Below are positions 39,311-59,154 of a stretch of 64,000 nt of DNA, piece after piece (the first letter of the stretch is position 1; the number at the start of each line of letters is the position of its first letter). Under the pieces are notes generated by a model. That model had not been told where the DNA came from and searched no databases. It worked only from the letters and a program-made list of their open reading frames with translations. This DNA comes from Citricoccus sp. SGAir0253 (GTDB lineage Bacteria; Actinomycetota; Actinomycetes; Actinomycetales; Micrococcaceae). The stretch lies in assembly GCF_005877055.1 (NCBI RefSeq), contig NZ_CP039425.1, positions 1-64,000 on the forward strand, given 5' to 3'. The translations under genes and the position numbers were made by a program.

Positions 39311-40480
39311 CTACTGTTCGGCGTGTGCTGCCAGGCTTTCCTCAGGGCTGGTCAGTATGGGCGTGGGTTCAGACATCGCGGACTCCATTGTGATCACGAG
39401 ACGGGCGACCTTTCCGTCACGGACGCGCTGGTAGCCCTCGTTGATCTCGTCCAACCCGATGGTCTCGGTCACGAGCTCGTTCAGATGTAGGAGCCCGCGG
39501 GAGGCCAGCCCGGCGAAGAAGGGAACGTCTACCTTGAGGTTCGCCGATCCCATGTAGACGCTTTCGATGCGGTTTCGATTCCGCATGAAGGTCATGGCGT
39601 CCAAGGTGATGGGAACATCCTTGCCACCGATCCCCACCAGGTACAGCCCACCACCGTAGGACAGCATCTCCAGTCCCTGCTGGGCTACTTGCTGGGATCC
39701 CACGAAGTCGAAGACATAGTCGGCGCCTTCCGGTAGGTGCTGCCGCAGTGCCGTCACGGGGTCCTCCTCGCTGCCGTTGATGGTGTGCGTCGCTCCAAAC
39801 GTCCGGGCGTGGGCCAGCTTTTCGTCGGAGACGTCGATGGCGACGATCTCCGAGGCGCCGGCCAGCACGGAGCTGCTGATGGCGTTCAACCCGACGCCAC
39901 CTGTTCCCACGATGACGACGCTTTCGCCCCGGCCGACCTGGGCCGTGTTGAGCACGGCACCGGCGCCCGTAATCACGCCGCACCCCAGCAGGGCCGCCTG
40001 TTCGAACGGCAGGTCCTGGGGAATCCGGGCCAGTTGGTTCTCGTGGACCAGCGCCTTCTCCGCGAAGCCGCCGAGGCCGAATGCTTGATTCACGGGTTCA
40101 CGGTCCGAACTCAGACGCGGTGGGTCCCCGGCGGGTCGTTCGGTTCGCTGTGTGTTTCGACAGTAGTACGACCGGCCGGACAGGCAGCGTGGACAATCGC
40201 CACAGTAGCGAATCAGGGCGCCGACTACGTGGTCCCCCTCGTGGAGGGACCGGACGCCGGGGCCGACGCGCTCGACCACCCCGGCGACTTCATGACCGAA
40301 CACGGCAGGCATGGGGAACCCGAGATCGGCACTGGCCATGGTGAGGTCCGACAGGCACAGGCCGACGGCCTTGACCTTGACGAGGACCTCGTTCGCCTGG
40401 GGCTCGCCCACGGTGATGTCTTCAATCGAGAATCCGGCGCCCGGTGCGTGGACAACGGCCGCCTTGATGGTGTGCCCCAC
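39311..40480 (-). CDS. Zinc-dependent alcohol dehydrogenase (MDR family)
   Basis: About 389 residues from the GTG at 40480, which has GAGAGGA well spaced upstream and places KAAVVHAPG at the usual N-terminal position. An ATG at 40555 overlapping the aldehyde dehydrogenase stop (ATGA) would add 25 residues and is an alternative. Zinc ligands are in LCLSDLT (Cys), GHE, and the CGDCPRCLSGRSYYC cluster. The Rossmann motif is GTGGVGL. This class III-like branch oxidises primary alcohols to aldehydes. With the upstream aldehyde dehydrogenase it forms an alcohol-to-acid pair in the TRAP/HtaA gene set. Confidence 0.87.
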   Translation of the reverse strand: MGHTIKAAVVHAPGAGFSIEDITVGEPQANEVLVKVKAVGLCLSDLTMASADLGFPMPAVFGHEVAGVVERVGPGVRSLHEGDHVVGALIRYCGDCPRCLSGRSYYCRNTQRTERPAGDPPRLSSDREPVNQAFGLGGFAEKALVHENQLARIPQDLPFEQAALLGCGVITGAGAVLNTAQVGRGESVVIVGTGGVGLNAISSSVLAGASEIVAIDVSDEKLAHARTFGATHTINGSEEDPVTALRQHLPEGADYVFDFVGSQQVAQQGLEMLSYGGGLYLVGIGGKDVPITLDAMTFMRNRNRIESVYMGSANLKVDVPFFAGLASRGLLHLNELVTETIGLDEINEGYQRVRDGKVARLVITMESAMSEPTPILTSPEESLAAHAEQ

Positions 40481-40551
40481 GTTTGTTCCTCTCCCTGTGG
40501 TTGATTCTTCCCCAGTGGCACCGGGCCGGTCTGGTGTGGTCGGCGTGGTGG

Positions 40552-42009
40552 TCATGACTGGTTGGGGCGGTTCAGGAAGATCGACTTGGGCACCTGATAG
40601 TGGCCCAGCCCCTCCGGGCCGAGCTCCCGGCCGAGGCCGCTCATCTTCACGCCTCCGAAGGGCGCCACCGGATCCGTGGCGTAGCCGTTGAGACCGATCG
40701 TCCCGGTACGGACCTGGCGCGCTACACGGAGACCGCGATCCTGGTCGGTGGTCCACACGCTGCCGGCCAATCCGTAGTCGGAATCGTTGGCGATGTTGAT
40801 GGCGTCCTGTTCGTCGGTGTACGGGATCACCCCGAGAACGGGACCAAAGATTTCCTGCTGGGCTATCACGTCCTTGCGGTCGAGGTCGGCGAAGACCGTG
40901 GGCTGGACGTACCACCCTCGGTCAAGGCCTGTGGGCCGCCCCCCTCCCGTGGTGACGCGCCCGCCTTGGGCCACCCCCTGACGGATGAGTCCCTCCACCC
41001 GTTCGCGATGCCGTTCGGACACCAAGGGGCCGACCTGCGTTTCCGGCGTCAGGGGATCCCCCACCGCCAGTCCAGCGACCAAGTTCGTGACGATCTCGAC
41101 GGTCTGCTCGTAACGGTTTCGTGGCGCCAGGATGCGGGTGGACAGCCAGCAGACCTGTCCGTTGTTCGACATCGTGGTGGACAGGAACGCCTCGAGGCTG
41201 GATTCGAGGTCGGCATCGTCCAGGACGATGGCGGCTGATTTTCCCCCGAGTTCCAGTGTGACCGGCCTCAGCATTCGGCCACAGACCTCCCCGATCGCCT
41301 TACCGACACCCGGGGAGCCGGTGAAGGAGACCTTGTCGACGTGTGGGTGGCTGACCAAGTATGCCCCGGTGGGTCCGCCGGCTGGGACGATGTTGAGGAC
41401 CCCACCCGGCAGACCGACTGCCATCGCCGCCTCGGCGACCACCATGGCGTCCAGGACGGTTTCGGGGGCAGGCTTGAGGACGATCGTGCACCCGGCGGCC
41501 AGAGCCGGTGCGAGCTTGAGGAAGGTGATGCTCTGGGGGACGTTCCACGGGACGATGGCGGCCACGACGCCGATCGGGTCATGCGTCACGAGAGCCTGCT
41601 TGCCCTTGAGCCCGGGCCGTAGGTCATCGACCTGGCCCACCACCAGGTCGCTGAAGTACCGCAAGAGCATGGCCGGGTTCGAGGTTTCCCATTTCTGGGA
41701 GAGGGCAATGGGCATGCCATTCTGCATCGTCACGCGCCGGGCGGTTTCCGACCCCCGGCCCTCCAACTCGTCGGCGAAGCGGCGCAGCACCTCGGCCCGT
41801 TGTGCGGCCGTCCACTGCGACCATCCCTGCGGGTCATCGAAGGCCGCGCGGGCGGCCTGGACGGCCCGGTCGATGTCCTGTTCCGTCCCTTCGGGCACCT
41901 GCCCGATGTATGCCTCCGTGGCGGGTGAATGGACTTCGATGCTGGAGGCCCCGTGCGGGGCCGTCCACTCCCCTCCGATGTAGAGCCGGTCGTATTCCAT
42001 GGTTGCCAT
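40552..42009 (-). CDS. Aldehyde dehydrogenase (NAD(P)+)
   Basis: 485 residues from the ATG at 42009 (GAGGAAGAAG upstream). The ALDH landmarks are complete: PWNVPQ, LKPAPETVLDA, GSPGVGKAIG, the glutamate motif LELGGKS, the nucleophile in NNGQVCW, and EIFGPVLGVI. It oxidises an aldehyde to a carboxylic acid and most resembles the fatty/aromatic aldehyde branch. A CTGTA direct repeat 17 bp upstream may be its operator. It is followed by the alcohol dehydrogenase. Confidence 0.92.
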   Translation of the reverse strand: MATMEYDRLYIGGEWTAPHGASSIEVHSPATEAYIGQVPEGTEQDIDRAVQAARAAFDDPQGWSQWTAAQRAEVLRRFADELEGRGSETARRVTMQNGMPIALSQKWETSNPAMLLRYFSDLVVGQVDDLRPGLKGKQALVTHDPIGVVAAIVPWNVPQSITFLKLAPALAAGCTIVLKPAPETVLDAMVVAEAAMAVGLPGGVLNIVPAGGPTGAYLVSHPHVDKVSFTGSPGVGKAIGEVCGRMLRPVTLELGGKSAAIVLDDADLESSLEAFLSTTMSNNGQVCWLSTRILAPRNRYEQTVEIVTNLVAGLAVGDPLTPETQVGPLVSERHRERVEGLIRQGVAQGGRVTTGGGRPTGLDRGWYVQPTVFADLDRKDVIAQQEIFGPVLGVIPYTDEQDAINIANDSDYGLAGSVWTTDQDRGLRVARQVRTGTIGLNGYATDPVAPFGGVKMSGLGRELGPEGLGHYQVPKSIFLNRPNQS

Positions 42010-42025
42010 CAAGACTTCTTCCTCT

Positions 42026-42042
42026 CTGTATAGCTGTACAGC
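42026..42042. promoter_or_regulatory. Candidate operator CTGTATAGCTGTACAGC
   Basis: CTGTA repeats 8 bp apart and contains the palindrome GCTGTACAGC, just before the aldehyde dehydrogenase. The reverse strand at 51976-51989 reads CTGTAGAGCTGTAG before the GntR gene, sharing CTGTAnAGCTGTA. Inferred target of that regulator. Confidence 0.45.
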
Positions 42043-42128
42043 GCAGTGGCGCACGGTCTGGGCAGACCGCCAGGCGGGCGGTCACGGCGATACCCACAGG
42101 AGATGGACCTCGAGGTGCCGGTCGCGCG

Positions 42129-42680
42129 CTATTCGGCTCCCGGATCCGGGTCCGGCCTGCCGCCTGCGTGGACGCAGACGGGATCCAAGGGATCACCGGC
42201 GAAGTAACTGCCCATGAAGAGGAATTGCCCCTCTTCGGCCAACACGGCAGCCCATTGCCATCGCGGCGCAGGGTCGCCTTCAGGACTACCGTCGAGGGAC
42301 AGCCGGGCAACCTCCATGCGCACCGGGGCATCGCCGTGCTCGTCGACCACGGCCGTCAGGATTCCCTGGCCGTCGTCACCGATGACGATCTCCGGGTCGG
42401 CGATGAGGACCGAGAGTGCCCCGAAATGTGCGCTCATCTGGACGCGGCCCCGGCAGCGGATGACCCCGGGACGGCCCGGTGCGGCTCCGGCCTGCGCGTG
42501 GCCGGGAAACACGAACTGTCCCTGTTCGCTGAGACCTGCACCGCCGCTGAGCCTGTACTCGTGGTCCGCCAGCCGTTCGAAGTACTCGCGGAATGACGTC
42601 CGAAGGCCCCACCGCACCACGACCGGACCTGCCAGGTTTGTGACCGCGGGGACGGGCTGGTGCATAACGTGTCTAGTCAT
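42129..42680 (-). CDS. HtaA-domain protein without signal peptide
   Basis: 183 residues. One HtaA domain (about residues 18-115): VRWGLRTSFREYFERLAD, SGGAGL, FVFPG, the core GRVQMSAHFGALSVLIADPE, then IVIG. In corynebacterial haem-uptake HtaA proteins, this domain binds haem through a conserved Tyr and His. Here Y33 and H85 occupy those positions. Unlike HtaA, there is no signal peptide and no membrane anchor, so it should be cytosolic. It starts 5 bp after the TRAP large-permease stop, within the transporter operon. A second such protein is at 50728-51240. Possible roles are haem delivery to the P450s or binding of the imported substrate. Confidence 0.75.
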   Translation of the reverse strand: MTRHVMHQPVPAVTNLAGPVVVRWGLRTSFREYFERLADHEYRLSGGAGLSEQGQFVFPGHAQAGAAPGRPGVIRCRGRVQMSAHFGALSVLIADPEIVIGDDGQGILTAVVDEHGDAPVRMEVARLSLDGSPEGDPAPRWQWAAVLAEEGQFLFMGSYFAGDPLDPVCVHAGGRPDPDPGAE

Positions 42681-42685
42681 CTCGC

Positions 42686-44245
42686 CTACTCGCTCGTGGA
42701 GAGTTGCCCGGGCAACCAAGTGACCAGGTCGGGGACGAAGATGAGCAACACCACAAAGCCCAGCGCAACGAGCGCAAACGGTGTCACGCCGGCGAAGATC
42801 GTCACCAGCGAGATGTTCTTGCCCTGGTTCACCTCGCGTTCCTGGGCGATGCGGTGGAGGACGAAGGCGAGGATCCCCAGCGGCGGGGTCACCATGCCGA
42901 TTTCCACCATGATCACCAAGAACACGCCGAACCAGATCATGTCCACGCCCATTTCCATCAAGGGCAGTGCCAGGATCGGCACGGTGAGGAGGATGATGGC
43001 CATGGTGTCCATGAACATGCCCAGGAGCAGGTAGAGCAGGACCAGCACCAGCAGGACCGCGGTCGTGCTCAGCCCCAGCCCGACGATCTGGTCCGTTAGT
43101 CCATTGGCCAGCCGGCTCAGCGTCACCACTCGTGTCAGGGCGTGGACGCCGATCAGCAGCAGGAAGATCCCGGCGGTGGAGATCGCTGACACGCCGACCA
43201 CGTCGATGCAGTAACGGTAGAACGATCTCCACGTCCTCGGCTCTCCCGGCCGGGTCGCCCAGCCGAGGACGATGGCAACAATGGCCCCGACCGCCGCCGA
43301 CTCGGTCGGCGTGAACACGCCGGAGGCAATGCCACCGATGACAATCACCGCCACCACGGCCAGGGGAATGGCCCGCGAGAGCGCCTTGAACTTTTCCGAC
43401 CAGGACACGGTCAGCCCGGTCCGGGGGGCAATGTCCGGGCGAATGATACCTACCAGGAAGATGTAGAGGCAGAAAGCCACGGCCAAGGCGATGCCGGGGA
43501 TGATTCCGGCCATCAGCTGCGCTCCGACCGAGGTCTGGGCCGCCCCGGCGTAGACAACCAGCAGGACACTGGGGGGAATGATCTGGCCGAGGGTGCCGGC
43601 CATCGCGGTCGACCCGATAGCAAATCCTGGTCGATACCCCGCACGGATCATCTCCGGGACCGAGACCCGGCCCAGGGCATGTGTCAAAGCGATGGTCGAG
43701 CCACTCGACGCGGCCAGGCCGGCTCCAGAAACCGTGGTGGTCAAAGCCAGACCTCCCGGGACGTTGCCCAGCCAGGCCTTGGCCGCCTCGAAAGCCCGCC
43801 CGGTCATCCCCGACTTCCAGAGGGCGGTGCCCATGAGGATGAAGGTCGGGATGACGCTCAGCTGCCATGAGGCTGTGGGCTCATAAACGGACTGCTCCAA
43901 GGTGGAGGCCACCGCCGAGATCCCGCCCAGGGCATACAGGCCCAGCGCGCCGGCGCCGAGCATCGCCAGCCCGATGTGCACCCCTGCCAGCATCAGCACG
44001 AGCATCAGCAGGACCGTGAGGAGCCCGACCGTTTCCCGTTCCAGCCCCCCGAACAGCAGGGCACCAGCAATGGCCAGCGCACCTGCATACAACAGGGCCA
44101 CCCAGATCCAGGAGCGGCTCCGCCCAGGAGTTGCGCCCCCGCCGGATCGCGATGTCGGGAGGGCATCCGCCGGTACGGTCCCGCCGCCCGCTGCAGGTCG
44201 CGCCGGGCCGGTTTCAAGCTGGGGTGAGGTGACATTCTCAAGCAT
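42686..44245 (-). CDS. TRAP transporter large permease (DctM type)
   Basis: 519-residue, about 12-13-helix membrane protein. Family signatures include FILMGTALWKSG, the repeat GSTIALTHALG/AGTLGQIIPPSVLLVVYAG, SGVFTPTESAAVGA and GMFMDTMAIILLTVPI. It drives Na+- or H+-coupled uptake of a substrate delivered by the periplasmic-type binding protein. It is about 90 residues longer than typical DctM: a disordered 45-residue N-terminus and an extra helix (WIWVALLYAGALAIAGALLF) precede the core. It overlaps the DctQ gene by 8 bp. Confidence 0.92.
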   Translation of the reverse strand: MLENVTSPQLETGPARPAAGGGTVPADALPTSRSGGGATPGRSRSWIWVALLYAGALAIAGALLFGGLERETVGLLTVLLMLVLMLAGVHIGLAMLGAGALGLYALGGISAVASTLEQSVYEPTASWQLSVIPTFILMGTALWKSGMTGRAFEAAKAWLGNVPGGLALTTTVSGAGLAASSGSTIALTHALGRVSVPEMIRAGYRPGFAIGSTAMAGTLGQIIPPSVLLVVYAGAAQTSVGAQLMAGIIPGIALAVAFCLYIFLVGIIRPDIAPRTGLTVSWSEKFKALSRAIPLAVVAVIVIGGIASGVFTPTESAAVGAIVAIVLGWATRPGEPRTWRSFYRYCIDVVGVSAISTAGIFLLLIGVHALTRVVTLSRLANGLTDQIVGLGLSTTAVLLVLVLLYLLLGMFMDTMAIILLTVPILALPLMEMGVDMIWFGVFLVIMVEIGMVTPPLGILAFVLHRIAQEREVNQGKNISLVTIFAGVTPFALVALGFVVLLIFVPDLVTWLPGQLSTSE

Positions 44246-44828
44246 GAATACTGCCTTCCATTGCGGTCCGGTGCGAATCGCCGTCTCCCAGGTCCTCGGT
44301 CACGGCCTCGTCCGTGAGTGCGAGCTGGAGAAGGCGCGCCAGCGACTGGACGGTCAGCCACGCCCACGCCACCACGATCGCAACCTTGATCGGCCACACG
44401 GCCAGCAGGCCCGAGCCCATGGGCACGGCCTCGCGCATCGCCGCGGAATCCACGGCCAGCAGCACGGAGCTCCAGGTCATCACCGCGGAGATCACGACCA
44501 CCAGCACTTGAGCGCCGACGACCTGCACCTTCCAGGGACGACCCGACAGGCCGTCCTCGACCAGCGTCACCCGCATGTGCTCATTGCGCCGCTCGGTGAT
44601 CGCCATGGCGAAGAGCACCGTCAGCGGCATCATCCACCCGCTCACGTACTCCGTCACACCGACCAGCGCGGTCCCGACAGTGTTTCTCAGGACGACATCG
44701 AGGGCGACCAACACCATCATGGCCACCAGGGCGACACTGGACACCACGAGCAGCGCGCGGCTTCCCCGCCCGACCGCCTCGGCCAACTTGACCACCGAGC
44801 CACCTCGGAGTGCTTGTCGTTTCATCAT
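44238..44828 (-). CDS. TRAP transporter small permease (DctQ type)
   Basis: 196 residues from the ATG at 44828, with four hydrophobic helices. It has the DctQ pattern: VVLRNTVGTALVGVTEYVSG in helix 2-3, AITERRNEHMRVTLVEDGL in the loop. It joins the binding protein to the large permease. It lies 28 bp after the DctP stop and overlaps DctM, so all three TRAP genes are one operon. The longer upstream frame is Arg/Pro-rich and not needed. Confidence 0.88.
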   Translation of the reverse strand: MMKRQALRGGSVVKLAEAVGRGSRALLVVSSVALVAMMVLVALDVVLRNTVGTALVGVTEYVSGWMMPLTVLFAMAITERRNEHMRVTLVEDGLSGRPWKVQVVGAQVLVVVISAVMTWSSVLLAVDSAAMREAVPMGSGLLAVWPIKVAIVVAWAWLTVQSLARLLQLALTDEAVTEDLGDGDSHRTAMEGSIHA

Positions 44829-44856
44829 CGCTCCGTTCCGCCGTGGGGCCGTCGGC

Positions 44857-46065
44857 CTACGACGAGGCGCCGTTCGACCCAATGACACCGGTCAGCTCTT
44901 CATGCCAGGCCGGGAAATCCTCAACGGACTCGGTGGCGACCTCACCGGCGTCGGCCAGGGCCACGTCCTGCTCGACTAGGTCGGCCCACTTCGCCATGGC
45001 GGCGTCCAGGTCCTTCCCCAGCGCCTGGGGCTCCGCGACACCCTGCGGGGCCCGCTCGGTCCAGGAGCCACTGTGCTCTTCCTGGAATTCGCCCAGCGCC
45101 TGGTTCATCTCGGTGACGTCATGGGTGGTGATCCCCAGTTCCTCCCGCCGGTCGAAGAACTCCTGCTGTGCCTGGATGTCTGCCTGCGTCCGGTTGACCG
45201 TGTAGTCCGTCATGCTGGTCTGGAGGGCGTCCTGGGCCTCCGTCGGCAGGTCCTTCCACGTGTCCAGATCCATGAGCACCACCAGTCCCATGTTGGCGCT
45301 GAAGGACGCCGGGTAGTACTCCTTGGCGACTTCGTTGAGCCCGTAGTCGTTGTACATGAAGGGGGCGCCGATCTGGCAGTCGATCACGCCGCGCTGAAGG
45401 GCCTCATAGGTCTCGCCCTGGGCGACATTGACGACCGTCATGCCGAGGGCTTCGGCTTCGGCGGCCCACACCGGACCGGGGGCCCGGACGCGGATGCCCT
45501 GCAGATTGGTCTGCGAGTCGAGTTCCCTGCTGCAGAGCATGTCGTACTTGCCGGCCACGGAGGTAGAGGCTAGGAATTTGACGCCCTGGGCTTCGAATTC
45601 CTTCTGGGCAGCTTCGCTGTTGAACATTTCGTTCATCACGCCGACAACCTGCAGCTGGTTGTGCGGGTAGGAGTCCAGGGGCGCAGACCCCTTCTCGTTT
45701 ATCCAGTTCGCCACCGGCAGGGCCTGCGGCTGGTAGGTCACCACGGTGTAGGTCACGTCCGAGACCCCGTCAGCCGTGCCAGCCAGGGCATCGTCGCTCG
45801 TCAGAAGCGAGCTGGTCCAGTAGGGCTCCACAACGAGCTTGCCGCCGGTTTGCTCGTCGAGGCTGGAGATCCATTCCTGAACGGACTTGCCAGCCGGCGA
45901 GGCGGCGGAGGTCAGGTCGCTGTAGGTCAACGTTTCGGCCGGCATGTCCTCCAGGGACTGGGCCGGCTGACCGGCCCCGGCACCCGCGGAGCCGCAGGAA
46001 GTCAGGGCGAGAAGGCCTAGGGCGGCACCGGAGGCGACCAGGTGGCGGGTGATATTGCGGGGCAT
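44857..46065 (-). CDS. TRAP transporter solute-binding lipoprotein (DctP type)
   Basis: 402 residues from the ATG at 46065. The N-terminus is a lipoprotein signal: RNITRHLVASGAALGLLALT then SC at the lipobox (LTSC), giving membrane attachment through Cys. The DctP fold has the family arginine motif LQGIRVRAPGPVWAAEAEAL, which usually clamps a substrate carboxylate, and NVAQGETYEALQRGVIDCQI. The substrate is therefore probably an organic acid. It is the first gene of the TRAP-HtaA-ALDH-ADH operon and is divergent from a P450 gene. Confidence 0.92.
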   Translation of the reverse strand: MPRNITRHLVASGAALGLLALTSCGSAGAGAGQPAQSLEDMPAETLTYSDLTSAASPAGKSVQEWISSLDEQTGGKLVVEPYWTSSLLTSDDALAGTADGVSDVTYTVVTYQPQALPVANWINEKGSAPLDSYPHNQLQVVGVMNEMFNSEAAQKEFEAQGVKFLASTSVAGKYDMLCSRELDSQTNLQGIRVRAPGPVWAAEAEALGMTVVNVAQGETYEALQRGVIDCQIGAPFMYNDYGLNEVAKEYYPASFSANMGLVVLMDLDTWKDLPTEAQDALQTSMTDYTVNRTQADIQAQQEFFDRREELGITTHDVTEMNQALGEFQEEHSGSWTERAPQGVAEPQALGKDLDAAMAKWADLVEQDVALADAGEVATESVEDFPAWHEELTGVIGSNGASS

Positions 46066-46137
46066 GGGGTCCTCGAATCGATGGGGGAACCGGTTCACAA
46101 CGGGCCGACGAGCACTCGGCCTTGCCAAGAAAAGTGT

Positions 46138-46163
46138 GTCACAGTAGAACTGTTGCTTGTGAC
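46138..46163. promoter_or_regulatory. GTCACA...TGTGAC dyad between divergent promoters
   Basis: An inverted pair GTCACA / TGTGAC with a 14-bp centre lies between the TRAP operon and the P450 gene. It could control both directions. ACAGTAGA inside it is also found at 51986-51993. Confidence 0.4.
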
Positions 46164-46274
46164 TCGAGACACAATACACACGGGCCATGGGCGAATCAAC
46201 AGCTTGCCGGGGACTCCGGGGCGACAGCAGTACGCCCGACCTGGCTTCCACCTGACACAGAACGAGGAGGAGTT

Positions 46275-47602
46275 GTGACCGCAACTCAGACCGAGCAGTT
46301 GGCCATCATCCCGGACGAGATCGCCCGCCGGATCGTCTTGCCGGCAGGACACCTGGATGAGCAGGCCCTCTTCGATGCGTACGCTTGGCTCCGGCGCGAA
46401 GCACCCCTGGGCAAGGCGGAGGTGGACGGCTATGACCCCCTGTGGCTGGTCACCAAGCACGCCGACATCCTCGAGATCGAACGCCAGCCCGAGCTCTTCA
46501 CCAACGGCGGCGGCCCCGACGCCCCCGGCACGCACAACCCGATCCTCAATACCAAGGCGGGTGACGCGTGGACCATGAAGGTCAATGGCAACCTGCGCCC
46601 CCTGGAGTCCCTGCAGATGATGGACCCGCCGGAGCACACCATCATCCGGGACATCGCCCAAGGTTGGTTCCGTCCGGTGGAGCTCAAGAAGTGGAACGAC
46701 CGCATCCGGCAACTCGCCACCAAGGTGATCTCCCGGCACCTGTCCCGGGCACCAACGAGATCGACTTCTCCCGAGACTTCGCCTGGTACTACCCCCTGCA
46801 CGTCATCATGACGCTGTTCGGGGTCCGCGAGGAAGATGAGCCGCTGATCATGCGACTGGCCCATGAGCGCTTCGGGGTCAACGACCCGGAGAACCGCCCG
46901 GCGGGACAGTCCGTGGACCCGGCCACCCTGGCCGCTCGGCTGAACGTGGCGAACATCAAGGAATTCGAGGCGTACTACACCGGCCTGGTCAACAGTCTCC
47001 GGGAAGAGCCGCAGGACAACTTGGCCAGTCTCATCGCGAACGCCCGCCAGCCCGACGGCGAGTACTACCCCATGAAGACCTGCATCGGTTACTACATCGC
47101 CATCTCCGGGGCCGGGCACGACACAACGTCGACGACCGCGGCAACGATCTTCGAACAGCTGGCCAAGCACCCCGAACAGCTCCGGGCCGTCCAGGACGAC
47201 CCCTCCCTGATCCCCACGCTCATCCAGGAAGGCCTGCGATGGACGTCGCCGGTGAAGCACTTCGTCCATCAAGCGGCCGTCGACTACACCCTGCGCGGTG
47301 CCGAGATCAAGAAGGGCGACCGGCTCATGCTGCTGTTCCAGTCGGCCAACCGCGACGAGGAGGTCTTCGAGGCACCCGACGAATTCCGCCACGACCGCAA
47401 GCCCAACCCGCACATCGCCTTCGGCAGTGGACCCCATTCGTGCCTCGGGCAGCCCCTGGCGCGTCTGGAACTGCGGATCCTGCTCGAAGAGCTCCTGCCC
47501 AGGGTCCGCAACATCGAGCTGCTCGAGGGCCGCAAGGTGCTCCAGACCAACTTCGTCGGCGGCGTGAAATCCCTGCCGGTCCGCTTCGAACTCGTCGACT
47601 GA
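46275..47602 (+). pseudogene. Cytochrome P450 with single frameshift
   Basis: From the GTG at 46275 (GAGGAGGAG upstream) the frame reads a P450 N-terminus with DPPEHTIIRDIAQGWF (C-helix). Near 46740-46756, at TCCCGGG, it must shift by one to continue as GTNEIDFSRDFAWYYPLHVI. The second frame holds the I-helix oxygen motif AGHDTTST, the ExxR helix EGLRW and the haem loop FGSGPHSCLGQPLARLE with its cysteine. A repaired product would be about 442 residues and a complete class I bacterial P450. The rest shows no other damage, so this is either a very recent lesion or an assembly indel. It likely hydroxylates the imported substrate. Confidence 0.87.
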
Positions 47603-47612
47603 GTCGGCGGTC

Positions 47613-49013
47613 TTGGCCGTGGGGGTCCCCGTCCGCGCTCACGAATGGAATGCCACTGCGGCCCTGGTTTTCACCTGCCTGCTCGGTGCCCTGGTGCAGA
47701 CCATCATCGTTTCCGTCCAGGCGGACCTGCCCCGGCTCCTCGATGCCAGTCGCGAGGAAACCGCCTGGGCGATCACGGCCACCATCACGACGGGGTGCGC
47801 CGTTGCCCCCGTGGCCGGACGGCTCGGTGACCTCTACGGGCATCGCCGAGTGATCGTGTCGCTTCTGGGCGTTTTCGTGGTGGGCTCAGTGGTCTGTGGG
47901 GTGGCGGAGTCGGTCTGGTCACTGATCGTCGGGCGCGCGCTGCAGGGCGCGGCGGTCGGGGTGATCCCGGTGGCTACGTCCATGCTGCGAAATGTGGTGT
48001 CCGGCCCGCGCCTGCCGTTGGCCTTCGCCGTGGTGGCGGGAACCATGGGCGTCGGTTCTGCCTTCGGTATCCCCCTCGGCGCTGTGCTGGCCACCCATGT
48101 CGACTGGAGGGTCATGTTCTGGCTCTGCTGTGTCCTCGGGTTGGGGTGCGTGGTGTGGATCCGATGGGGAGTGCCCGTCGATGGGCCCCGGCCTGACGGC
48201 CGCTTCGACGTGGTGGGCGCCGCGGGAAGCAGCCTGGGCGCCGTGGCCGTGTTGGTGGGCTTGTCCGGGCTGCTGGTGCAGGGCTGGGATGCGCCATCGA
48301 CCGTGGTGCCGGCAGCGGTAGGCCTGGCGGTGCTAGGGCTGACCGGCGTGCATCTCTGGTATCACCGGGCACCCCTCATCAACGTTCGACTGGCATTGCG
48401 CCCCCGGCTGTTGCTGACAAACGTTGCGTCCGCTGCGGTCAACTTCGGCATGATGAGCATGCTGGTGTTCTTCCCGCAACTGCTGGTCCTGCCACCGGTG
48501 GTTGGCGGTCTGGGGCTTGGGGCCGGAGCGGCCAGTGCGATCATGGCGGCCAGTGGACTGGCTCAACTGTGCGTCACCCCGCTCTCGGCACGGTTGAGCC
48601 GGTCGCTGGACCCGGGGCGAATCCTGGCCCTGGCGGCCCTGCTTCTGACGCTGGCACTCGTGCTGGGGGTCGCGGCCGGAGCTCAGCTGTGGGCCGTTGT
48701 CCTGGTGCTGATCGCCGGTGGGGCGGCCATCGGCATCGCCCTCGCCGCCGTCCCGTTGGTGATCCATGACGCGGTGTCCCCCTCGGACATCGCGACGGCT
48801 CACGGGCTCAACGCCCAGATCCGCATGTTCGGCACGGCCGCTGCCGCGGCCGCCATCGGTGCCGTCCTGGCATCCCAGACGATCGCGGGTGCGCCGACCC
48901 CGGCCGGCTTCATCTGGGCCGGGCTCACCGCCGCGGCTGCCACCGGGGTCGGGGCCGGCCTCGGGTTCCTGATCCCGCGCCAAGCTCCGGAAAAATTGCC
49001 CCACGCCTCTTGA
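47613..49013 (+). CDS. MFS transporter, DHA2-type (14-helix) permease
   Basis: 466 residues with about 13-14 hydrophobic helices. Loop motif GRLGDLYGHRRV, motif C-like GTMGVGSAFGIPLGAV and the opening FTCLLGALVQTIIVSVQADL are typical of EmrB/QacA-like drug:H+ antiporters. The start is TTG at 47613 or GTG at 47619; it begins 10-16 bp after the P450 stop, so they are co-transcribed. It likely exports a toxic substrate or intermediate of the P450 pathway, although some DHA2 members import. Confidence 0.82.
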   Translation: MAVGVPVRAHEWNATAALVFTCLLGALVQTIIVSVQADLPRLLDASREETAWAITATITTGCAVAPVAGRLGDLYGHRRVIVSLLGVFVVGSVVCGVAESVWSLIVGRALQGAAVGVIPVATSMLRNVVSGPRLPLAFAVVAGTMGVGSAFGIPLGAVLATHVDWRVMFWLCCVLGLGCVVWIRWGVPVDGPRPDGRFDVVGAAGSSLGAVAVLVGLSGLLVQGWDAPSTVVPAAVGLAVLGLTGVHLWYHRAPLINVRLALRPRLLLTNVASAAVNFGMMSMLVFFPQLLVLPPVVGGLGLGAGAASAIMAASGLAQLCVTPLSARLSRSLDPGRILALAALLLTLALVLGVAAGAQLWAVVLVLIAGGAAIGIALAAVPLVIHDAVSPSDIATAHGLNAQIRMFGTAAAAAAIGAVLASQTIAGAPTPAGFIWAGLTAAAATGVGAGLGFLIPRQAPEKLPHAS

Positions 49014-49044
49014 ACAACTGTCTATAAAAGGCCAGCATAGTGAT

Positions 49045-49063
49045 CTGTGGAACACTTCCACAG
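49045..49063. promoter_or_regulatory. CTGTGGAA/TTCCACAG dyad before aldehyde dehydrogenase
   Basis: A perfect 8-bp inverted repeat with a 3-bp centre, 68 bp upstream of the ATG at 49131. It is a candidate operator for a dimeric regulator. Confidence 0.45.
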
Positions 49064-49130
49064 TTTCGGCGTCGCGGTCTTGCATCCCTTGGTACGCCCG
49101 AGATTTCCTGTGACATGGAAGGACCTATTC

Positions 49131-50639
49131 ATGACCACTCCCACTCTCTTCTCCCCAACGGGAGAAGCCGCCGCGGACCTGCGGCGGTATGGGTCCTACA
49201 TCGACGGTGCGTGGACCACCGCCGAGGACCGCGACCTGGTGGACGTCACCAATCCGGCCACCGAAGAGGCCATCGCTCAAGTGGGCGTGGCTAGCGTGGA
49301 GGACGTGGACCGGGCCGTGCTGGCCGCCCGCCGGGCCCATGACGTGGACGGCTGGGGGCAGACCACGCCGGCCGAGCGGAAGGCCGTTCTCGTCCGGTTC
49401 GCAGAGATCATGGAACGGCGCAAGCACGAACTGGTCGACTTGAACATCGCCGAGTGCGGCTCGGTGCGGTGGTTCGCCGAGGCCGGCCAGGTGGGTGGGG
49501 CCATCGCCCACCTGCGATCCACCATCGATGCCATGGACACGTTCGACTGGGAGCGGTCCTCTCAGGTTCACTTCGGCAATGGCATCGGCCAGGGGCAGAT
49601 CGTTCGGGAGAGCTACGGTGTTGCGGCCCTGATCAGTGCCTACAACTTCCCCCTGTGGCTCAACATGACGAAGCTGGCCCCGGCCCTGGCGGCTGGCTGC
49701 TCGGTCATCCTCAAGCCGGCCACCGTCACTCCGCTGGAGGGCCTCATCCTGGCCGAGATCGGCGAGGAGGCCGGTCTTCCGGCAGGGGCCCTCAACGTCA
49801 TCGTCGGCGGGCGCGTCCCGACGCAAGCCCTGACGACCCATGACGGCGTGGACATGGTCAGCTTCACCGGCTCGGACGCGGTCGGCTCGGAGATCTACCA
49901 GCAGGCGGCCGCCTCCATCAAGAAGGTCGTGCTCGAGCTGGGCGGCAAGAGCGCGAACATCGTGCTCGAGGACGCCGACCTGGACGCCGTGGCCGCCCAG
50001 GTGGTGACCCACACCATCATCCAGGCAGGCCAGGGATGTTCGTTGCTGATGCGGACGCTGGTCCACCGGTCCCGGTACGACGAGCTGGTGGAGAAGGTCG
50101 CCGCCGGCCTGGCCGCCGTCACGGTCGGTGACCCCACGGATCCGGCCACCCAGATGGGCCCTTTGATCTCGGCGGCGCAACGGGACAAGGTGGAGAGCCT
50201 CATCGCCGACGGCGTCGCCTCCGGGGCTCGACTGGTCACCGGCGGGGGCCGCCCCGCCCGCCTGGACCGCGGGTACTTCGTGGAACCGACACTGTTCGCC
50301 GACGTGGACAACAGCATGCGCATCGCTCGGGAAGAGATCTTCGGTCCCGTGAATGTCGTGATCGGCTTCGACACGGACGACGAGGCCGTCAGCATCGCCA
50401 ACGACAGCCCCTATGGGCTCTCGGGGGCCGTCAACACGGCCGATCCCCGGCGCGCCTATGACATCGCCCGTCGGCTGCGTACCGGCGCCGTGGTCCTCAA
50501 CGGCGGCGGCGGGGCCTTCCCGGATATCAGCATGCCGTTCGGCGGCTACAAGGCGAGCGGCATCGGCCGCGAGTACGGCGAATGGGGGCTGGAGGAGTAC
50601 CTGCAGACCAAGTCCATCGGCTGGGCAGCGGCGCGCTGA
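49131..50639 (+). CDS. Aldehyde dehydrogenase (NAD(P)+)
   Basis: 502 residues from the ATG at 49131 (GAAGGA 8 bp upstream). The domain order is complete: YNFPLWLNMTKLAPALAAGC, LKPATVTPLEG, GSDAVGSEIYQQ, VLELGGKSANIV with the general-base Glu, the nucleophile in GQGCS, and EEIFGPVNVVIGF. It is paralogous to the enzyme at 40552-42009 but clearly diverged. It follows the P450 and exporter genes and ends at a strong hairpin. It should oxidise an aldehyde produced downstream of P450 and alcohol-oxidase steps. Confidence 0.92.
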   Translation: MTTPTLFSPTGEAAADLRRYGSYIDGAWTTAEDRDLVDVTNPATEEAIAQVGVASVEDVDRAVLAARRAHDVDGWGQTTPAERKAVLVRFAEIMERRKHELVDLNIAECGSVRWFAEAGQVGGAIAHLRSTIDAMDTFDWERSSQVHFGNGIGQGQIVRESYGVAALISAYNFPLWLNMTKLAPALAAGCSVILKPATVTPLEGLILAEIGEEAGLPAGALNVIVGGRVPTQALTTHDGVDMVSFTGSDAVGSEIYQQAAASIKKVVLELGGKSANIVLEDADLDAVAAQVVTHTIIQAGQGCSLLMRTLVHRSRYDELVEKVAAGLAAVTVGDPTDPATQMGPLISAAQRDKVESLIADGVASGARLVTGGGRPARLDRGYFVEPTLFADVDNSMRIAREEIFGPVNVVIGFDTDDEAVSIANDSPYGLSGAVNTADPRRAYDIARRLRTGAVVLNGGGGAFPDISMPFGGYKASGIGREYGEWGLEEYLQTKSIGWAAAR

Positions 50640-50667
50640 TCCTGGTGGTACAGCCGTAGGCCGGCGA

Positions 50668-50717
50668 CCTCGCCCGGGTGCGGCGAGACCGAAAGGTCTC
50701 GCCGCACCCGGGCGAGG
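50668..50717. terminator. 50-bp hairpin terminator between convergent genes
   Basis: A 23-bp stem (CCTCGCCCGGGTGCGGCGAG and 3 more) with a GAAA tetraloop and a perfect complement. It sits between the convergent aldehyde dehydrogenase and HtaA genes. Confidence 0.8.
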
Positions 50718-50727
50718 CGCCGACCGC

Positions 50728-51240
50728 CTACGGCCAGAGCGTGGAGAACCGCGCCGGGGCGAGATCGGTGCCGGCCGGGTAGACGCCGTTGAACATCTCG
50801 ACCCCGCTGTCGGCCAATTGCAGAGGCACCTCCACCAGCTCCCGGCCGGCCGCTAGCGGGCGCTCGGCTGACCACCCGATGAGCTCTCGACGGGTGGTGT
50901 CGGGCCAAGACATCAGGTCGACGACACTGAGTTCCGTACCCGCGGCGCTGAGCTCCAGCCATGGATCCATGAGGATCAACAGCAGCATTCCGCCGTGGGC
51001 CTTCAAGCGCACCTGCCCGCCGAACTTGAGTCGGACACCGCCCTGGAGAAGGGCCTCGCGGGCCGTGAGGGGAAAGAGGAATGACCGCGAACCCGTATCG
51101 TGTCGCGCGCCGTCCCGGGCATCAATCGAAAAGTCCTCGATAGTGTCCAAGTACTGCAGGAAGCTGGCCTTGATGCTCCAACTGAGGCACTGGGCCGATT
51201 CCTCGGCAAGGGCGTCCTGCCTCGCGGTGGTGTTGGTCAT
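50728..51240 (-). CDS. HtaA-domain protein without signal peptide
   Basis: 170 residues. The HtaA pattern is CLSWSIKASFLQYLDTIEDF, SFLFPL, GGQVRLKAHGGMLLLILMDP, then LELSAAG and a C-terminal beta-rich part. Y30 and H82 match the haem-ligand positions of HtaA and are 52 residues apart, exactly as in the protein at 42129-42680. No signal peptide or anchor is present. Its ATG overlaps the GntR stop (ATGA), which couples its synthesis to a catabolic regulator. That is unusual for a haem-uptake domain and suggests a role in the pathway itself, such as haem supply to P450 or ligand presentation. Confidence 0.72.
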   Translation of the reverse strand: MTNTTARQDALAEESAQCLSWSIKASFLQYLDTIEDFSIDARDGARHDTGSRSFLFPLTAREALLQGGVRLKFGGQVRLKAHGGMLLLILMDPWLELSAAGTELSVVDLMSWPDTTRRELIGWSAERPLAAGRELVEVPLQLADSGVEMFNGVYPAGTDLAPARFSTLWP

Positions 51241-51932
51241 GGCGTCGCGGCGTCCAGCTGGCGCAACCGGGGCGTCTTCCACGGATCGCTCGAGAAGTGG
51301 TCGCTGGACTGCTCCACCGCTTCGACGTCCCCCTGCCGCAGCGCATCGATCAGCGCCCGATGCTTGGTCTTCCACGTGTCCAGTGGTAGCTGCTCGAGCC
51401 AGTCCAGGGACTGGAGCCGGCACAGGCGGAACTCGTCGAGCATGTCAGCGAAGGCCTTGCTCAACCGGGGGCTGCCGGCCATGTCGACTACGGCTTGGTG
51501 GAAGTCGCAGTCCGCTTGGATCCGCACGGACCACGGTTCACCCTCGGGCATGCTCAGGATGCGTTCGATCGCCTCGTCGACGGCGGGCCCGGGCTTGGTC
51601 CCCGCCTTGAGGGCCGCCCGATAGGCCGATGCTTCCAGGCTCTCGCGGAGCAAGAGGATGTCGGTGTACTCCTCCCGGTCGAAGACCGGGACGGACCACC
51701 CCCGGTTCTCCCGGTACCGGAGCAGTCCCACGTTCTCCAGCCGCGACATCGCCGCACGAAGGGTATGCCTGGACACCTCCAGCTTTTTGGCCAGCGGAGC
51801 TTCCTTGATCCTCTCCCCCGGCGGAATGCTCCCGGCGAAAATGTCCTCCCGCAACCGGGCCTCGAGGGCGTCGACGACCGAGACGGTGTGGAGCCTCCCG
51901 GCATCCCGTACCGGTGTCCGCTCGATGGTCAT
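51237..51932 (-). CDS. GntR-family regulator, FadR-type (FCD domain)
   Basis: 231 residues from the ATG at 51932; a GTG at 51956 is an alternative. The winged helix (KKLEVSRHTLRAAMSRLENV, about residues 48-67) and FCD ligand domain (ADCDFHQAVVDMAGS with D and H) are clear. It is transcribed with the downstream HtaA gene by ATGA overlap and may be the distal end of the P450-ferredoxin operon. It probably controls that operon and, through a shared CTGTAnAGCTGTA element, the aldehyde/alcohol dehydrogenase genes at 42 kb. Confidence 0.87.
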   Translation of the reverse strand: MTIERTPVRDAGRLHTVSVVDALEARLREDIFAGSIPPGERIKEAPLAKKLEVSRHTLRAAMSRLENVGLLRYRENRGWSVPVFDREEYTDILLLRESLEASAYRAALKAGTKPGPAVDEAIERILSMPEGEPWSVRIQADCDFHQAVVDMAGSPRLSKAFADMLDEFRLCRLQSLDWLEQLPLDTWKTKHRALIDALRQGDVEAVEQSSDHFSSDPWKTPRLRQLDAATP

Positions 51933-51975
51933 AGTGGCCCCCGCCCCGCTCGACACTGCTCAATGCTTTCTTGTG

Positions 51976-52044: not shown

Positions 52045-52860
52045 TCACTCTCGGTCCTCCCGGAGCGCACTGATCCGGGCGCCCAGCGATTGAAGGACGA
52101 GCCGCCGGTCGCTGACGGCATTCACCACCCGAGCACCCGCCCCGATCCACCGGTCGAAGTCCTGACGCGCGTCCTCCAGGGTGGAGCCACGGTAGAGGGT
52201 GGCGAAGAGCGGTACCGAAGCCCTGCGGGCCGCGTCGACGATCCGGTCGATCTCCCGGGCCACTTCCGGGGCGCTATTGTCCCCGAAATGCCCCATCTCG
52301 TGGGCCAAGTCGAAGCTGCCCAGGAAAAGTGCATCGATGCCCTCTACGGAGAGGATCTCTTCCAGTGCGTCGACGCCCTCCTGGCTCTCCACGGCCACGG
52401 CCACGAACACGTTCTCGTCGGACCACTGCGCGAATTCCCGCCAGTCCGCGGTGAGGTGCCCGGCCGCGCGCACGCTCGGGCAGGCGCCCCGAGCCCCCTG
52501 CCCGCGGTTGCGCGTGTAGCGGGCCGCGCTCACGGCGGCGCGTGCCTGCCCGGGCGTGGCGACATGCGGCACGACGATGCCCAGGGCGCCGGCATCGAGG
52601 ACCCGCTTGATCCATACCTCCTCGTTGGCCGGCACCCGCACCAGCGGCGTCAGGCCCACGGCCTCGGCCGCACGGATCATCGACACCACGGCATCGGTTC
52701 CGAAGGAGCCGTGCTCCCAGTCGATCATGACGTGGTCATAACCGGCCAGGCCCACCATCTCCACCAGTTCCGGGCTATTGGTCTGCACGTTCACCCCCAC
52801 GGACGTCCCACCCTGGCGCAGGGCCCGCAACACGGCATTGGTTCGGCCCCGCTCACGCAT
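52045..52860 (-). CDS. HpcH/HpaI-family class II aldolase
   Basis: 271 residues from the ATG at 52860. It has the metal-dependent (beta/alpha)8 aldolase pattern of HpaI/DDGA aldolases: MIDWEHGSFG, VRVPANEEVWIKRVLDAGAL, GIVVPHVATPGQARAAVSAA, VAVESQEGVDAL with the metal Glu, and LFLGSFDLAHEMG with the metal Asp. These cleave 4-hydroxy-2-oxoacids to pyruvate and an aldehyde. The aldehyde would feed the aldehyde dehydrogenases encoded nearby. The start overlaps the flavoprotein stop by 8 bp. Confidence 0.88.
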   Translation of the reverse strand: MRERGRTNAVLRALRQGGTSVGVNVQTNSPELVEMVGLAGYDHVMIDWEHGSFGTDAVVSMIRAAEAVGLTPLVRVPANEEVWIKRVLDAGALGIVVPHVATPGQARAAVSAARYTRNRGQGARGACPSVRAAGHLTADWREFAQWSDENVFVAVAVESQEGVDALEEILSVEGIDALFLGSFDLAHEMGHFGDNSAPEVAREIDRIVDAARRASVPLFATLYRGSTLEDARQDFDRWIGAGARVVNAVSDRRLVLQSLGARISALREDRE

Positions 52861-54256
52861 GACCGACCCCCACGGCGTGGGCGCGTCGACGGGAGGCAAT
52901 GCGGTGGGCCACAATCCGGCCGAACACCGCGCCCTTACCCAGGGAGGTACCCGTCATGTACGCGGCCCCGTGGAATCCCCCCGTCACCTCCCCGACGGCG
53001 TAGAGGCCCTCGATGACCTCGCCGGCGACGTCCGTGACCTCGCCATGGGGGGTGATGGTCAGCCCTCCGTAGGTAGTCGTCATCAGCGTCTTGGATGGGT
53101 AGGCGTAGAAGGGTGCCTTCGCCACGGGCACCAGGGCACCGACGCCATTGCACAGGTGCGTCCGCCCCACCTCATCGGGACGGCCATCGGCAATGCCGCC
53201 GTTGTACCGAGCGACGGTGTCCAGCAGTGCCTCCGGTGGAATGGACGCCATGCCCGCCAGGTCCTCCAGTGTGTCGGCCCTCCACAAGTGCCCGAGCTCT
53301 TCCAGCGTGTCCATGTCCTTCAGGGCAACACCCCGGTGCGATTTGGCCCGGACCTCCGCATCGAAGATCTGGAAGGCCACGGAACCGGGTTGGGCGAGCA
53401 CGGCAGAGCCCAGGGTCTTGTAATCCAGCGACTCGTCGATGAAGCGCTGGCCGTGGGCGTTGACGATGATGCCGCCCATATAGAAGGACGTCAGCAGTTC
53501 CTGCCGGTCGTCCCGCGTGTCGGGATGGGAACCGAAGGTGCCGGAGATCGAAGACATGTCCGCCAGGCCGGCGCCCAACCGCCAGCCCATGAGGAGCCCG
53601 TCGCCGGTGTTGCCCAAGCCGCCGTAGGGGATGCCGTCCAATTGCTCGGGAGCGAAGACCCGGAGCAACTCGCGAGAACGCGAGAACCCGCCGGCGGCGA
53701 TGACAATGCCCTCCCGGGCATCGAGCAAGAAGTGCCCCTCCGGTCCTTCAACCTCGACGGCGCTCACCCGCTGCGACTCATCGCGCCGTAGCCATCGAGC
53801 CCGGTGGCCGAACAGGGCCCGGCCGCCAGCGTCCAGGAAACTGGCGTACAGCCCCTCGAGGACCTCCCGGATCCTGGTGCTGTGGCCGCGTTGGACCGAC
53901 TGGCCCGAGCTGATCTCGACCTCACCGAATTCGACCCCGTGATCCTTCAACCAGTCGTAGGTGGACAACTGGTGCTCCAGATAGGCGTCCACCAGGCGCG
54001 GGTCGTTGCGGTGCGCGCCGACGTTCATCAGGTCCTGGCGGAACTGGTCGAGTGAGTCCGCCACACCCTCCGCCTCCTGCTCCTGGGTTCCGGCGAAGGC
54101 GAACCATCCGCCGCTCATGGCGGAGGACCCGCCGATGGCGTCCATCTTCTCGAGGAGCACGACGTCCAGCCCCGATTCCGCAGCCGCGGTCGCGGCGGTG
54201 AGACCGGCGATGCCCGCCCCGATGACCACCAGGTCACACTCGTGGTTCACAGTCAT
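52853..54256 (-). CDS. FAD-dependent dehydrogenase (fumarate reductase/KstD-like flavoprotein)
   Basis: 467 residues. The FAD ADP-binding motif VVIGAGIAGLTAATAAAESG and GGSSAMSGGWFAF are at the N-terminus. The middle cap domain and the C-terminal EGLYAVGEVTGGFHGAAYMT and GTSLGKGAVFGRI complete the fold of flavocytochrome-c/tricarballylate/ketosteroid dehydrogenase relatives. Such enzymes introduce or reduce a C=C next to a carbonyl or carboxylate. It is placed between an MFS gene and an aldolase, fitting dehydrogenation before hydration and aldol cleavage. Confidence 0.85.
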   Translation of the reverse strand: MTVNHECDLVVIGAGIAGLTAATAAAESGLDVVLLEKMDAIGGSSAMSGGWFAFAGTQEQEAEGVADSLDQFRQDLMNVGAHRNDPRLVDAYLEHQLSTYDWLKDHGVEFGEVEISSGQSVQRGHSTRIREVLEGLYASFLDAGGRALFGHRARWLRRDESQRVSAVEVEGPEGHFLLDAREGIVIAAGGFSRSRELLRVFAPEQLDGIPYGGLGNTGDGLLMGWRLGAGLADMSSISGTFGSHPDTRDDRQELLTSFYMGGIIVNAHGQRFIDESLDYKTLGSAVLAQPGSVAFQIFDAEVRAKSHRGVALKDMDTLEELGHLWRADTLEDLAGMASIPPEALLDTVARYNGGIADGRPDEVGRTHLCNGVGALVPVAKAPFYAYPSKTLMTTTYGGLTITPHGEVTDVAGEVIEGLYAVGEVTGGFHGAAYMTGTSLGKGAVFGRIVAHRIASRRRAHAVGVGHA

Positions 54257-54321
54257 GGCTTCTAGACATCCTTTCTGAAGGGTACGGGGAACTGGGCGCC
54301 CCACCGTGGGGCACCCCGGGT

Positions 54322-55565
54322 TCAGGGGGCCGGCGCTCCTCTGGGGCGCCGTCGCACTGAGAACACGAGGGGGATGAGGGAGGACAGCAGGCCTGCCACC
54401 AGCAGACCCCACCAAGCGGCGGGGTAACCGAGCTCGTCGACCGTCGCACCGAAGAGGACAGGTCCCCCGGCGAATCCGAGGAACGTGCTGGCGGTGACCA
54501 CCCCGGAGACGAGGCCTACCCGTTCGGGTGGGAAGTACCGCAGAACGGCCGAGGACAGTACTACGGGCACCAAAGCGAACCCGGCACCGCAAAGCACCGC
54601 ACCCGCCCAATAGGCCCACAAGGAATGGGCGCCCATGGACAGCAAAACCGCCCCACTGCTGGCCGCCAGGGCCAGGCCCAGCGCGACCATGAGGGTGAGC
54701 AGGTTGGTAAACCGATCGGCAACGAATCCCCAGCCGAACCGCGCGGCGAATCCAGCCACCCCCAAGGCCATGACGGCCAGCGATGCGACCGGAAGATCCA
54801 GCCCCAGCTCCTCAAGCCCGGTGGGCGGCAGGCCGAAGAGAACGGCCTGGAAACACACCCCGGTGAGCATTCCGTAGCCAAACATCATGGGTGTGAGGTG
54901 ACGGGGACGGGCTGTGGCGGTCGCGCCGACAGAAGAGCGGGCCGGCCTGGTGGCGTCGGCGAGCGGACCGGTCGCCGTGCGCAGTGCCAGTACTGACGGC
55001 ACCAGGAGCACCAAGACCCCCAGCGCGCCCGCCAACATGCCCTGGCGCCACCCCACGGAGGCTGCGGCCAGGGGTAAGGCCAGCCCCGCAGCCATCTGGG
55101 CGACCTGAACGCCTATCTGTTTGGTGGCGATCAAGCGTCCGCGGTGATCCACGTGGACGTAACGGGCCACTAGACCATTGGTGACCGAGGTGGACAGGGC
55201 CAATGCCGCGCCGCCGGTCGCCGCCGCCAGCAACAGTCCCGCCATGGACTGCGAGAGTCCTACCCCGCCAGCCCCAGCGCCGCGCAACCGTAGGTCGCGG
55301 CCACTCCCGTCTCGGGCGTCATGCGGTCCGCCAACCGACCGAGCGGTACGGAGCCCGCCGCCGTCGACAGGAAGACCGCCACCGCGAAGAGCCCGAGCCC
55401 GGCCATGGAGAGGCCGAGGTCGGCCCGGATGAGCGGGCCCAACGCGCTGACCCCGGAGGTCATCAACGCGGCCACCCCCATGGCGGACATCAGGGCGGCA
55501 GGGAAGGTGGCGCCGTGGAAGGACCACTGTCGCCGTCCGAAGCGGCCCTGGCCGGGAGAGCTCAA
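54322..55565 (-). pseudogene. MFS transporter with single frameshift
   Basis: The N-terminal frame, from a TTG near 55565, reads GVSALGPLIRADLGLSMAGL, FLSTAAGSVPLGRLADRM and ends CAALGLAG before a stop at about 55260. The remainder is in another frame from VGLSQSMAGLLLAAATGGAA through ten further helices to 54322, including GFVADRFTN. The break is near 55258-55275. Together they make about 413 residues, a normal 12-helix MFS permease. No other defect is seen. The start closely follows the SDR stop, in operon order. Confidence 0.8.
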
Positions 55566-56352: not shown

Positions 56353-56381
56353 GTTCCTCAGTCCCGTCTCCCTGGCACCGG

Positions 56382-56576
56382 TCACTCGGTGACGGCGATG
56401 GCTTTGGCCGGGCAGGCGCCGACAGCGCGGCGGACAGCCTCGTGCTGGCTTGCGTCCGGACGCTCCGACAGCAGGATCACCACCCCGTCCTCGTCGCGCT
56501 GGTCAAAGACCTCCATGGCCTCCATGACGCAGGCTCCGGCGGCAATGCACTTCTCCGTATCCACGGTCACTCTCAT
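56382..56576 (-). CDS. [3Fe-4S] ferredoxin for cytochrome P450
   Basis: 64 residues. Cluster ligands are C10, C16 and C55 (CIAAGACVMEA ... ACPAKAI). The position of a fourth ligand is A13, the hallmark of three-cysteine [3Fe-4S] ferredoxins that feed actinobacterial P450s. It lies between the ferredoxin reductase and SDR genes in the operon led by the P450 at 57796-59049. It should carry electrons from the reductase to one or both P450s. Confidence 0.92.
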   Translation of the reverse strand: MRVTVDTEKCIAAGACVMEAMEVFDQRDEDGVVILLSERPDASQHEAVRRAVGACPAKAIAVTE

Positions 56577-59049: not shown

Positions 59050-59073
59050 GGTCGCCCTTTCGCTCGTGGGTTG

Positions 59074-59088
59074 AACTGTGTAACAGTT
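59074..59088. promoter_or_regulatory. AACTGTGTAACAGTT palindrome between divergent genes
   Basis: Perfect 6-bp arms with a 3-bp centre between the P450 operon and the lyase-family gene, 25 bp before the P450 ATG. It is a candidate operator. Confidence 0.45.
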
Positions 59089-59154
59089 GAGCACAGTCCT
59101 TTATGTGATGCAAGCCTCAAAGAGAAGCGCACGCCCACCGACCCAGGAGACCCC

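Follow-up and report, generated by a model that had tools for sequence, protein, structure and literature searches.

What does an HtaA domain do inside the cell, within operons devoted to catabolism? The question is raised by two small genes, here named HtaA-1 and HtaA-2, in the 64,000 nucleotides at positions 1 to 64,000 of contig NZ_CP039425.1 of Citricoccus sp. SGAir0253 (this whole stretch is called the window). HtaA domains, or CR domains, are described in the literature as exported and actinobacterial, and the characterised ones are all exported or surface proteins (PMC12494546). The CR fold of the two window proteins, their cytosolic location, their haem pocket and the linkage of their kind to cytochrome P450 genes are established by computation. 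Whether they are cytosolic ferric-haem carriers serving P450s is in our judgement an evenly balanced matter.

Both proteins match the Pfam family HtaA (PF04213) far above its curated cut-off of 24 bits (HtaA-1, 76.2 bits, 5.6e-21; HtaA-2, 63.7 bits, 4.1e-17), and their sequence matches in the PDB are CR2 of C. diphtheriae HtaA and C. glutamicum HtaA. AlphaFold models, built from the sequences of the window and of related loci, reached a mean pLDDT of 87.9 for HtaA-1 and 88.4 for HtaA-2, with Z-scores to HtaA CR2 of 19.7 and 18.1. Both adopt the CR beta-sandwich, on which HtaA CR2 of C. glutamicum and C. diphtheriae superpose over 148-153 aligned residues. Their clear structural matches are exclusively CR-fold proteins (HtaA, ChtA, HtaB, HbpA), unrelated folds beginning only at Z 5 to 8. 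A Pfam scan revealed nothing besides HtaA, with no DNA-binding, signalling or MAPR domain, and an NCBIfam search gave no family for these proteins. Neither a signal peptide nor a membrane anchor was found in either one by our own hydropathy script (not a dedicated predictor), the N-termini having no hydrophobic stretch. The sequence-only reading, which had assigned both proteins to the HtaA domain and seen no signal peptide or anchor, was thus confirmed by profile search, model comparison and hydropathy.

Among relatives, the PF04213 matches fall into large exported proteins scoring ~125-173 bits, most of them in long frames, and small single-domain proteins at ~30-90 bits, most of them in short frames. 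A profile built from the small proteins inverts this ranking, and the small cytosolic HtaA proteins are a coherent subfamily. Genome contigs were scanned with the profile of a narrower alignment (A2), and in all 120 distinct cytosolic members were assembled, part of them from Micrococcaceae. In essentially all of them a few to ~25 residues (34 in one member) precede a conserved Trp, with no hydrophobic segment.

In the solved structures of CR domains, a single axial Tyr of helix 1 holds the haem iron, a helper His (Tyr in ChtA) of the beta6-beta7 loop hydrogen-bonds the axial Tyr, and a haem propionate is bound by a later Tyr together with a Ser that precedes the axial one by four residues (PMC12494546). 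This pocket is complete in HtaA-1 (S29, axial Y33, helper H85, Y159) and in HtaA-2 (S26, axial Y30, helper H82, Y154). The Tyr and His had been proposed as haem ligands, 52 residues apart in both proteins; residues and spacing stand, but the His is the helper of the axial Tyr and not a second iron ligand. Across the subfamily the axial Tyr and the propionate Tyr are each present in 120/120 members, the helper position is His in 117 and, as in ChtA, Tyr in 3, and the propionate Ser is kept in 100, despite an overall identity of only ~30%. Loss of haem binding appears unlikely in these proteins because exactly the pocket residues stay invariant. For HtaA-1 and HtaA-2, the binding of haem is very likely.

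Linkage to P450 genes was assessed on 64 members, from genomes in which P450s were counted genome-wide. Of the 64, 39 have a P450 within 6 kb, where 2.0 were expected, and 34 (again against 2.0) when the motif FxxGxxxCxG is demanded; in 200,000 simulations the count never rose above 10. Within 2 kb, 28 members have a P450 (23 with the motif) against 0.88 expected. The counts were repeated with the Cys motif since P450-reductase fusions had led some PDR/VanB-type reductases into the P450 cluster c0; the list of P450-HtaA gaps still holds a few reductases of ~322 residues (L018, L020, L095). No P450 was found at any of 20 control loci with exported HtaA. In the distance profile, which uses all profile matches, the 25 P450s within 1 kb are without exception on the strand of HtaA, and P450 density drops twenty-fold by 7-8 kb; the linkage therefore exceeds a mere P450-rich region. 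The genome-wide counts, the loci with exported HtaA and the distance profile rule out a chance neighbourhood. At 40% identity, the motif-bearing P450s near HtaA, 50 in all, form 18 groups, so many P450 families take part, and the same diversity rules out a single inherited P450-HtaA gene pair. On a quick tree with weak deep branches, the P450-neighbour state changes 14 times; the association statistics ignore kinship. The linkage of signal-less HtaA proteins to P450s, suspected from the window, is real. Translationally overlapping P450-HtaA pairs (4-bp overlap) occur in several genera, the order P450-HtaA-ferredoxin-reductase in three genera, and the order P450-ferredoxin-reductase-HtaA on the R. 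erythropolis plasmid pLRE138.

Another arrangement is found at L014 (4244-7906), where the gene directly after HtaA encodes, in one fused protein, a P450, an adrenodoxin-reductase-like pyridine-nucleotide reductase and a flavodoxin. The same layout is seen at L063, L009, L013, L015, L057, L058, L061, L062 and L070, the Pfam domains of the fusion referring to L014 and L063 only. Most of these loci have a divergent LysR gene upstream. We know of no self-sufficient P450 with this domain order.

The subfamily is carried by Citricoccus, Arthrobacter, Zafaria, Rhodococcus, Mycolicibacterium, Amycolatopsis, Streptacidiphilus and others, on named degradative plasmids of Rhodococcus, Paenarthrobacter and Microbacterium, and also by 10 marine gammaproteobacterial metagenome-assembled genomes (loci L123-L131 and L133). 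These last proteins fall outside the actinobacterial range given in the literature. Contamination is unlikely to account for them, since the contigs that carry two of them measure 4.6 and 1.0 Mb. At four of the gammaproteobacterial loci HtaA is adjoined tail to tail by katG, the gene of another haem enzyme, catalase-peroxidase. At L033-L047 (mostly genus g23), a single-copy HtaA gene without a P450 beside it occupies a conserved slot after genes for an aminotransferase, an FAD-linked oxidase and a small membrane protein. In genus g20 (L028, L029, L032) the gene for an EamA-like permease is found shortly 5' of HtaA; two genomes of this group give no P450 match, and some other HtaA client must therefore exist. 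On the Rhodococcus rhodochrous plasmid pGD02.2.2, the HtaA gene (L019, 17703-18256) is annotated in two pieces owing to a frameshift.

How might such proteins work? HtaA-1 and HtaA-2 would each hold ferric haem b in a single cytosolic CR domain through an axial tyrosinate (Y33 or Y30), assisted by the helper His (H85 or H82), with the Ser and Tyr gripping a propionate. Made together with the P450 monooxygenase systems of catabolic operons, such a protein would most probably keep haem and then hand it over, allowing freshly synthesised P450 to be filled efficiently. It may also buffer haem near the P450 and shield the cell from free haem after loss or damage of the enzyme. Delivery to apo-P450 is the inferred step. 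We put forward, tentatively and at slightly less than even confidence, a dedicated family of bacterial P450 haem chaperones, in which an operon-borne cytosolic HtaA would bind ferric haem via tyrosinate and load the adjacent P450; it would parallel Dap1 in function, though its fold is unrelated. The katG neighbours of some gammaproteobacterial members count in favour of the haem carrier.

Several observations weigh against a role centred on P450s. No P450 lies within 6 kb of 69 of the 120 members, mostly in two large clades (Arthrobacter and genus g23), and some of the neighbours, such as Rieske oxygenases, acyl-CoA dehydrogenases and other dehydrogenases, contain no haem. The genomes G455 and G478 carry a cytosolic HtaA and have no P450 match, and because of these two P450-free genomes P450 cannot be the sole client. 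The clade most tightly joined to the P450 fusions has lost the propionate Ser. Finally, most bacterial P450s acquire haem without any dedicated donor known to us.

The P450-free genomes, the members without a nearby P450 and the katG neighbours make a general haem buffer or scavenger the main rival: a cytosolic protein taking up labile haem when haem enzymes are strongly induced or suffer damage, but neither touching nor loading a P450. It would accommodate members with no neighbouring haem enzyme at all, and fits a pocket fully conserved across every clade. Buffering alone leaves unexplained why HtaA is paired so tightly with P450s of many families, on one strand and with overlapping genes, and we consider it rather unlikely as the full account. 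Smaller still is the chance of a haem-dependent sensor or regulatory partner, whose holo or apo state would signal haem or redox to an adjacent GntR, LysR or TetR regulator, or bear on P450 stability in the manner of PGRMC1. HtaA-2 does overlap a GntR gene, HtaA-P450 and the regulator gene form a divergent pair in a LysR clade, and the stabilisation of P450s by PGRMC1 does not depend on haem (PMC8591507); yet the regulator family varies from locus to locus whereas the P450 link and the haem pocket persist, and the HtaA proteins have no DNA-binding or signalling domain.

A carrier of substrates or metabolites built on the CR fold had been offered by the sequence-only reading alongside a haem donor for P450s. 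The catabolic operon setting, which includes non-haem oxygenases, would suit it, and HbpA, listed as a haemoglobin receptor, is a CR fold put to another task. Against this, the iron-ligand Tyr, the helper His or Tyr and the propionate Tyr are invariant or nearly so although operon contents clearly differ, and a substrate carrier seems very improbable to us. The donor is favoured over it because the iron-ligand Tyr and the propionate Tyr are invariant. Least credible of all is a haem-uptake protein exported through an unrecognised pathway, an idea to which the exported or surface location of the characterised CR proteins lends weight (PMC12494546): the short N-termini without hydrophobic stretch, in essentially all members, speak against it, and the annotated neighbours include no uptake genes, the gene order being catabolic. 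A cytosolic haem carrier serving P450s, with clients wider than P450s alone, is the reading that we retain.

Comparison with known systems places this proposal. The window proteins share with the corynebacterial HtaA, ChtA and HtaB CR domains (PF04213) their fold (Z 16-20), axial Tyr, helper His (or Tyr) and propionate Ser and Tyr, at ~16-29% identity in structural alignments. They differ in being single-domain and cytosolic, without signal peptide or anchor, and in being linked to P450 and catabolic genes instead of haem uptake. The closest working parallel is found in the eukaryotic MAPR proteins Dap1 and PGRMC1, small Tyr-ligated haem proteins needed for or stabilising P450s (PMC9449707, PMC8591507). 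The likeness is one of function only: these have an unrelated cytochrome-b5-like fold and are membrane-associated, and PGRMC1 acts on P450 without haem. Uptake systems also employ cytosolic haem carriers, HutX/ChuX and HemS/PhuS, which pass haem to another protein; these carriers have other folds and act in the uptake and degradation of haem rather than in P450 operons.

At the locus itself (Table 1), the arrangement that had been read from the sequence is upheld: HtaA-1 follows the DctM gene after a gap of 5 bp (42681-42685), HtaA-2 overlaps the GntR gene by the 4 bp ATGA (51237-51240), and two P450s are present (46.2-47.6 kb on the plus strand, frameshifted, and 57796-59094 on the minus strand). 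One minus-strand unit runs from P450 #2 through ferredoxin reductase, ferredoxin, short-chain dehydrogenase, MFS transporter, FAD oxidoreductase, HpcH aldolase and GntR to HtaA-2, which comes last. The other comprises the TRAP genes (P-Q-M), HtaA-1, aldehyde dehydrogenase and alcohol dehydrogenase, with P450 #1 divergent. The gene order is identical in a second genus (L069/L137), with two P450s and two HtaA genes in matching slots. No haem-uptake genes (htaBC, hmuTUV) were found among the genes scanned around HtaA-1 and HtaA-2, where TRAP, P450, ferredoxin, ferredoxin reductase, dehydrogenase and regulator genes stand instead. The genome contains three HtaA genes, all without signal peptides and all beside P450s; of the five clear P450s in the genome, three are these neighbours. 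The third HtaA copy lies 1 bp upstream of a P450-reductase-flavodoxin fusion. No exported HtaA was found in this genome, and hence there is no HtaA-type uptake there.

Table 1. Genes and frames around HtaA-1 and HtaA-2 (positions in the window; percentages are identities to the homologue at the locus named)
Feature	Position	Strand	Basis
Zinc alcohol dehydrogenase frame (gene = C-terminal part)	39311..40915	-	Pfam PF08240/PF00107; L069 68%
Aldehyde dehydrogenase, 3' of HtaA-1	40552..42054	-	Translation; L069 66%
HtaA-1 (P0001), 183 aa, cytosolic single-domain HtaA/CR protein	42129..42680	-	Pfam, AlphaFold
TRAP large permease (DctM type)	42686..44245	-	Translation; L069 73%, collinear
TRAP small permease (DctQ type)	44238..44888	-	Translation; L069 53%
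TRAP substrate-binding protein DctP (frame exceeds gene)	44857..46284	-	Pfam PF03480 1.3e-31
Cytochrome P450 #1, divergent from TRAP-HtaA-1 unit	46275..47602	+	Pfam PF00067 7.9e-27, 3' half
HtaA-2 (P0002), 170 aa, cytosolic single-domain HtaA/CR protein	50728..51240	-	Pfam, AlphaFold
GntR/FCD regulator	51237..51956	-	Pfam PF07729, PF00392
HpcH/HpaI aldolase	52045..52914	-	Pfam PF03328 1.4e-37
FAD_binding_2 oxidoreductase frame	52853..54619	-	Pfam PF00890 9.3e-59
MFS transporter	54322..55527	-	Pfam PF07690
Short-chain dehydrogenase	55567..56385	-	Pfam PF13561 3.5e-58
Mono-cluster ferredoxin, P450 system	56382..56576	-	Pfam PF13370 1e-10
Ferredoxin reductase	56613..57793	-	Pfam PF07992/PF14759
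Cytochrome P450 #2	57796..59094	-	Pfam PF00067 7e-24; L137 P450 81%

P450 #1 carries one frameshift at ~46742-46745, its halves being 75% and 80% identical (tblastn) to the intact P450 of L069. The N-terminal part of the ferredoxin reductase lies in another frame, with a frameshift near 57620-57632 (tblastn, two frames). Both belong to one catabolic island of this assembly and are either genuine or sequencing errors. The 138-kb contig is probably a plasmid, and a near-DNA search of plasmids returned no copy of the window locus. Genes for a MobA/VirD2-type relaxase (36442-37887, +) and a DUF4913 protein (38812-39243, +) adjoin the island.

The HtaA domain and its haem chemistry are already known. 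In the open-access literature, represented mostly by titles and abstracts, we found nothing on cytosolic HtaA proteins, on an intracellular use of the domain or on its linkage to P450s. The interpretation offered by the sequence-only reading is borne out in part. The undescribed intracellular role that it suggested is well supported by the silence of this literature, by the cytosolic subfamily with its full pocket, by the strong P450 linkage across genera and many P450 families and by the exported loci without P450s; its clients must extend beyond the P450s then envisaged, as the P450-free genomes indicate. To our knowledge, the haem supply of bacterial P450s is poorly known and no dedicated donor has been established.

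Until now, CR domains stood for exported haem scavengers of Actinobacteria only. The cytosolic HtaA branch, with its intact pocket, its P450 operons and its extension even to Gammaproteobacteria, is a candidate for haem delivery within the cell that can be tested directly. The branch could find use in the production of P450s for biotechnology and could help interpret the plasmids of pollutant degradation.

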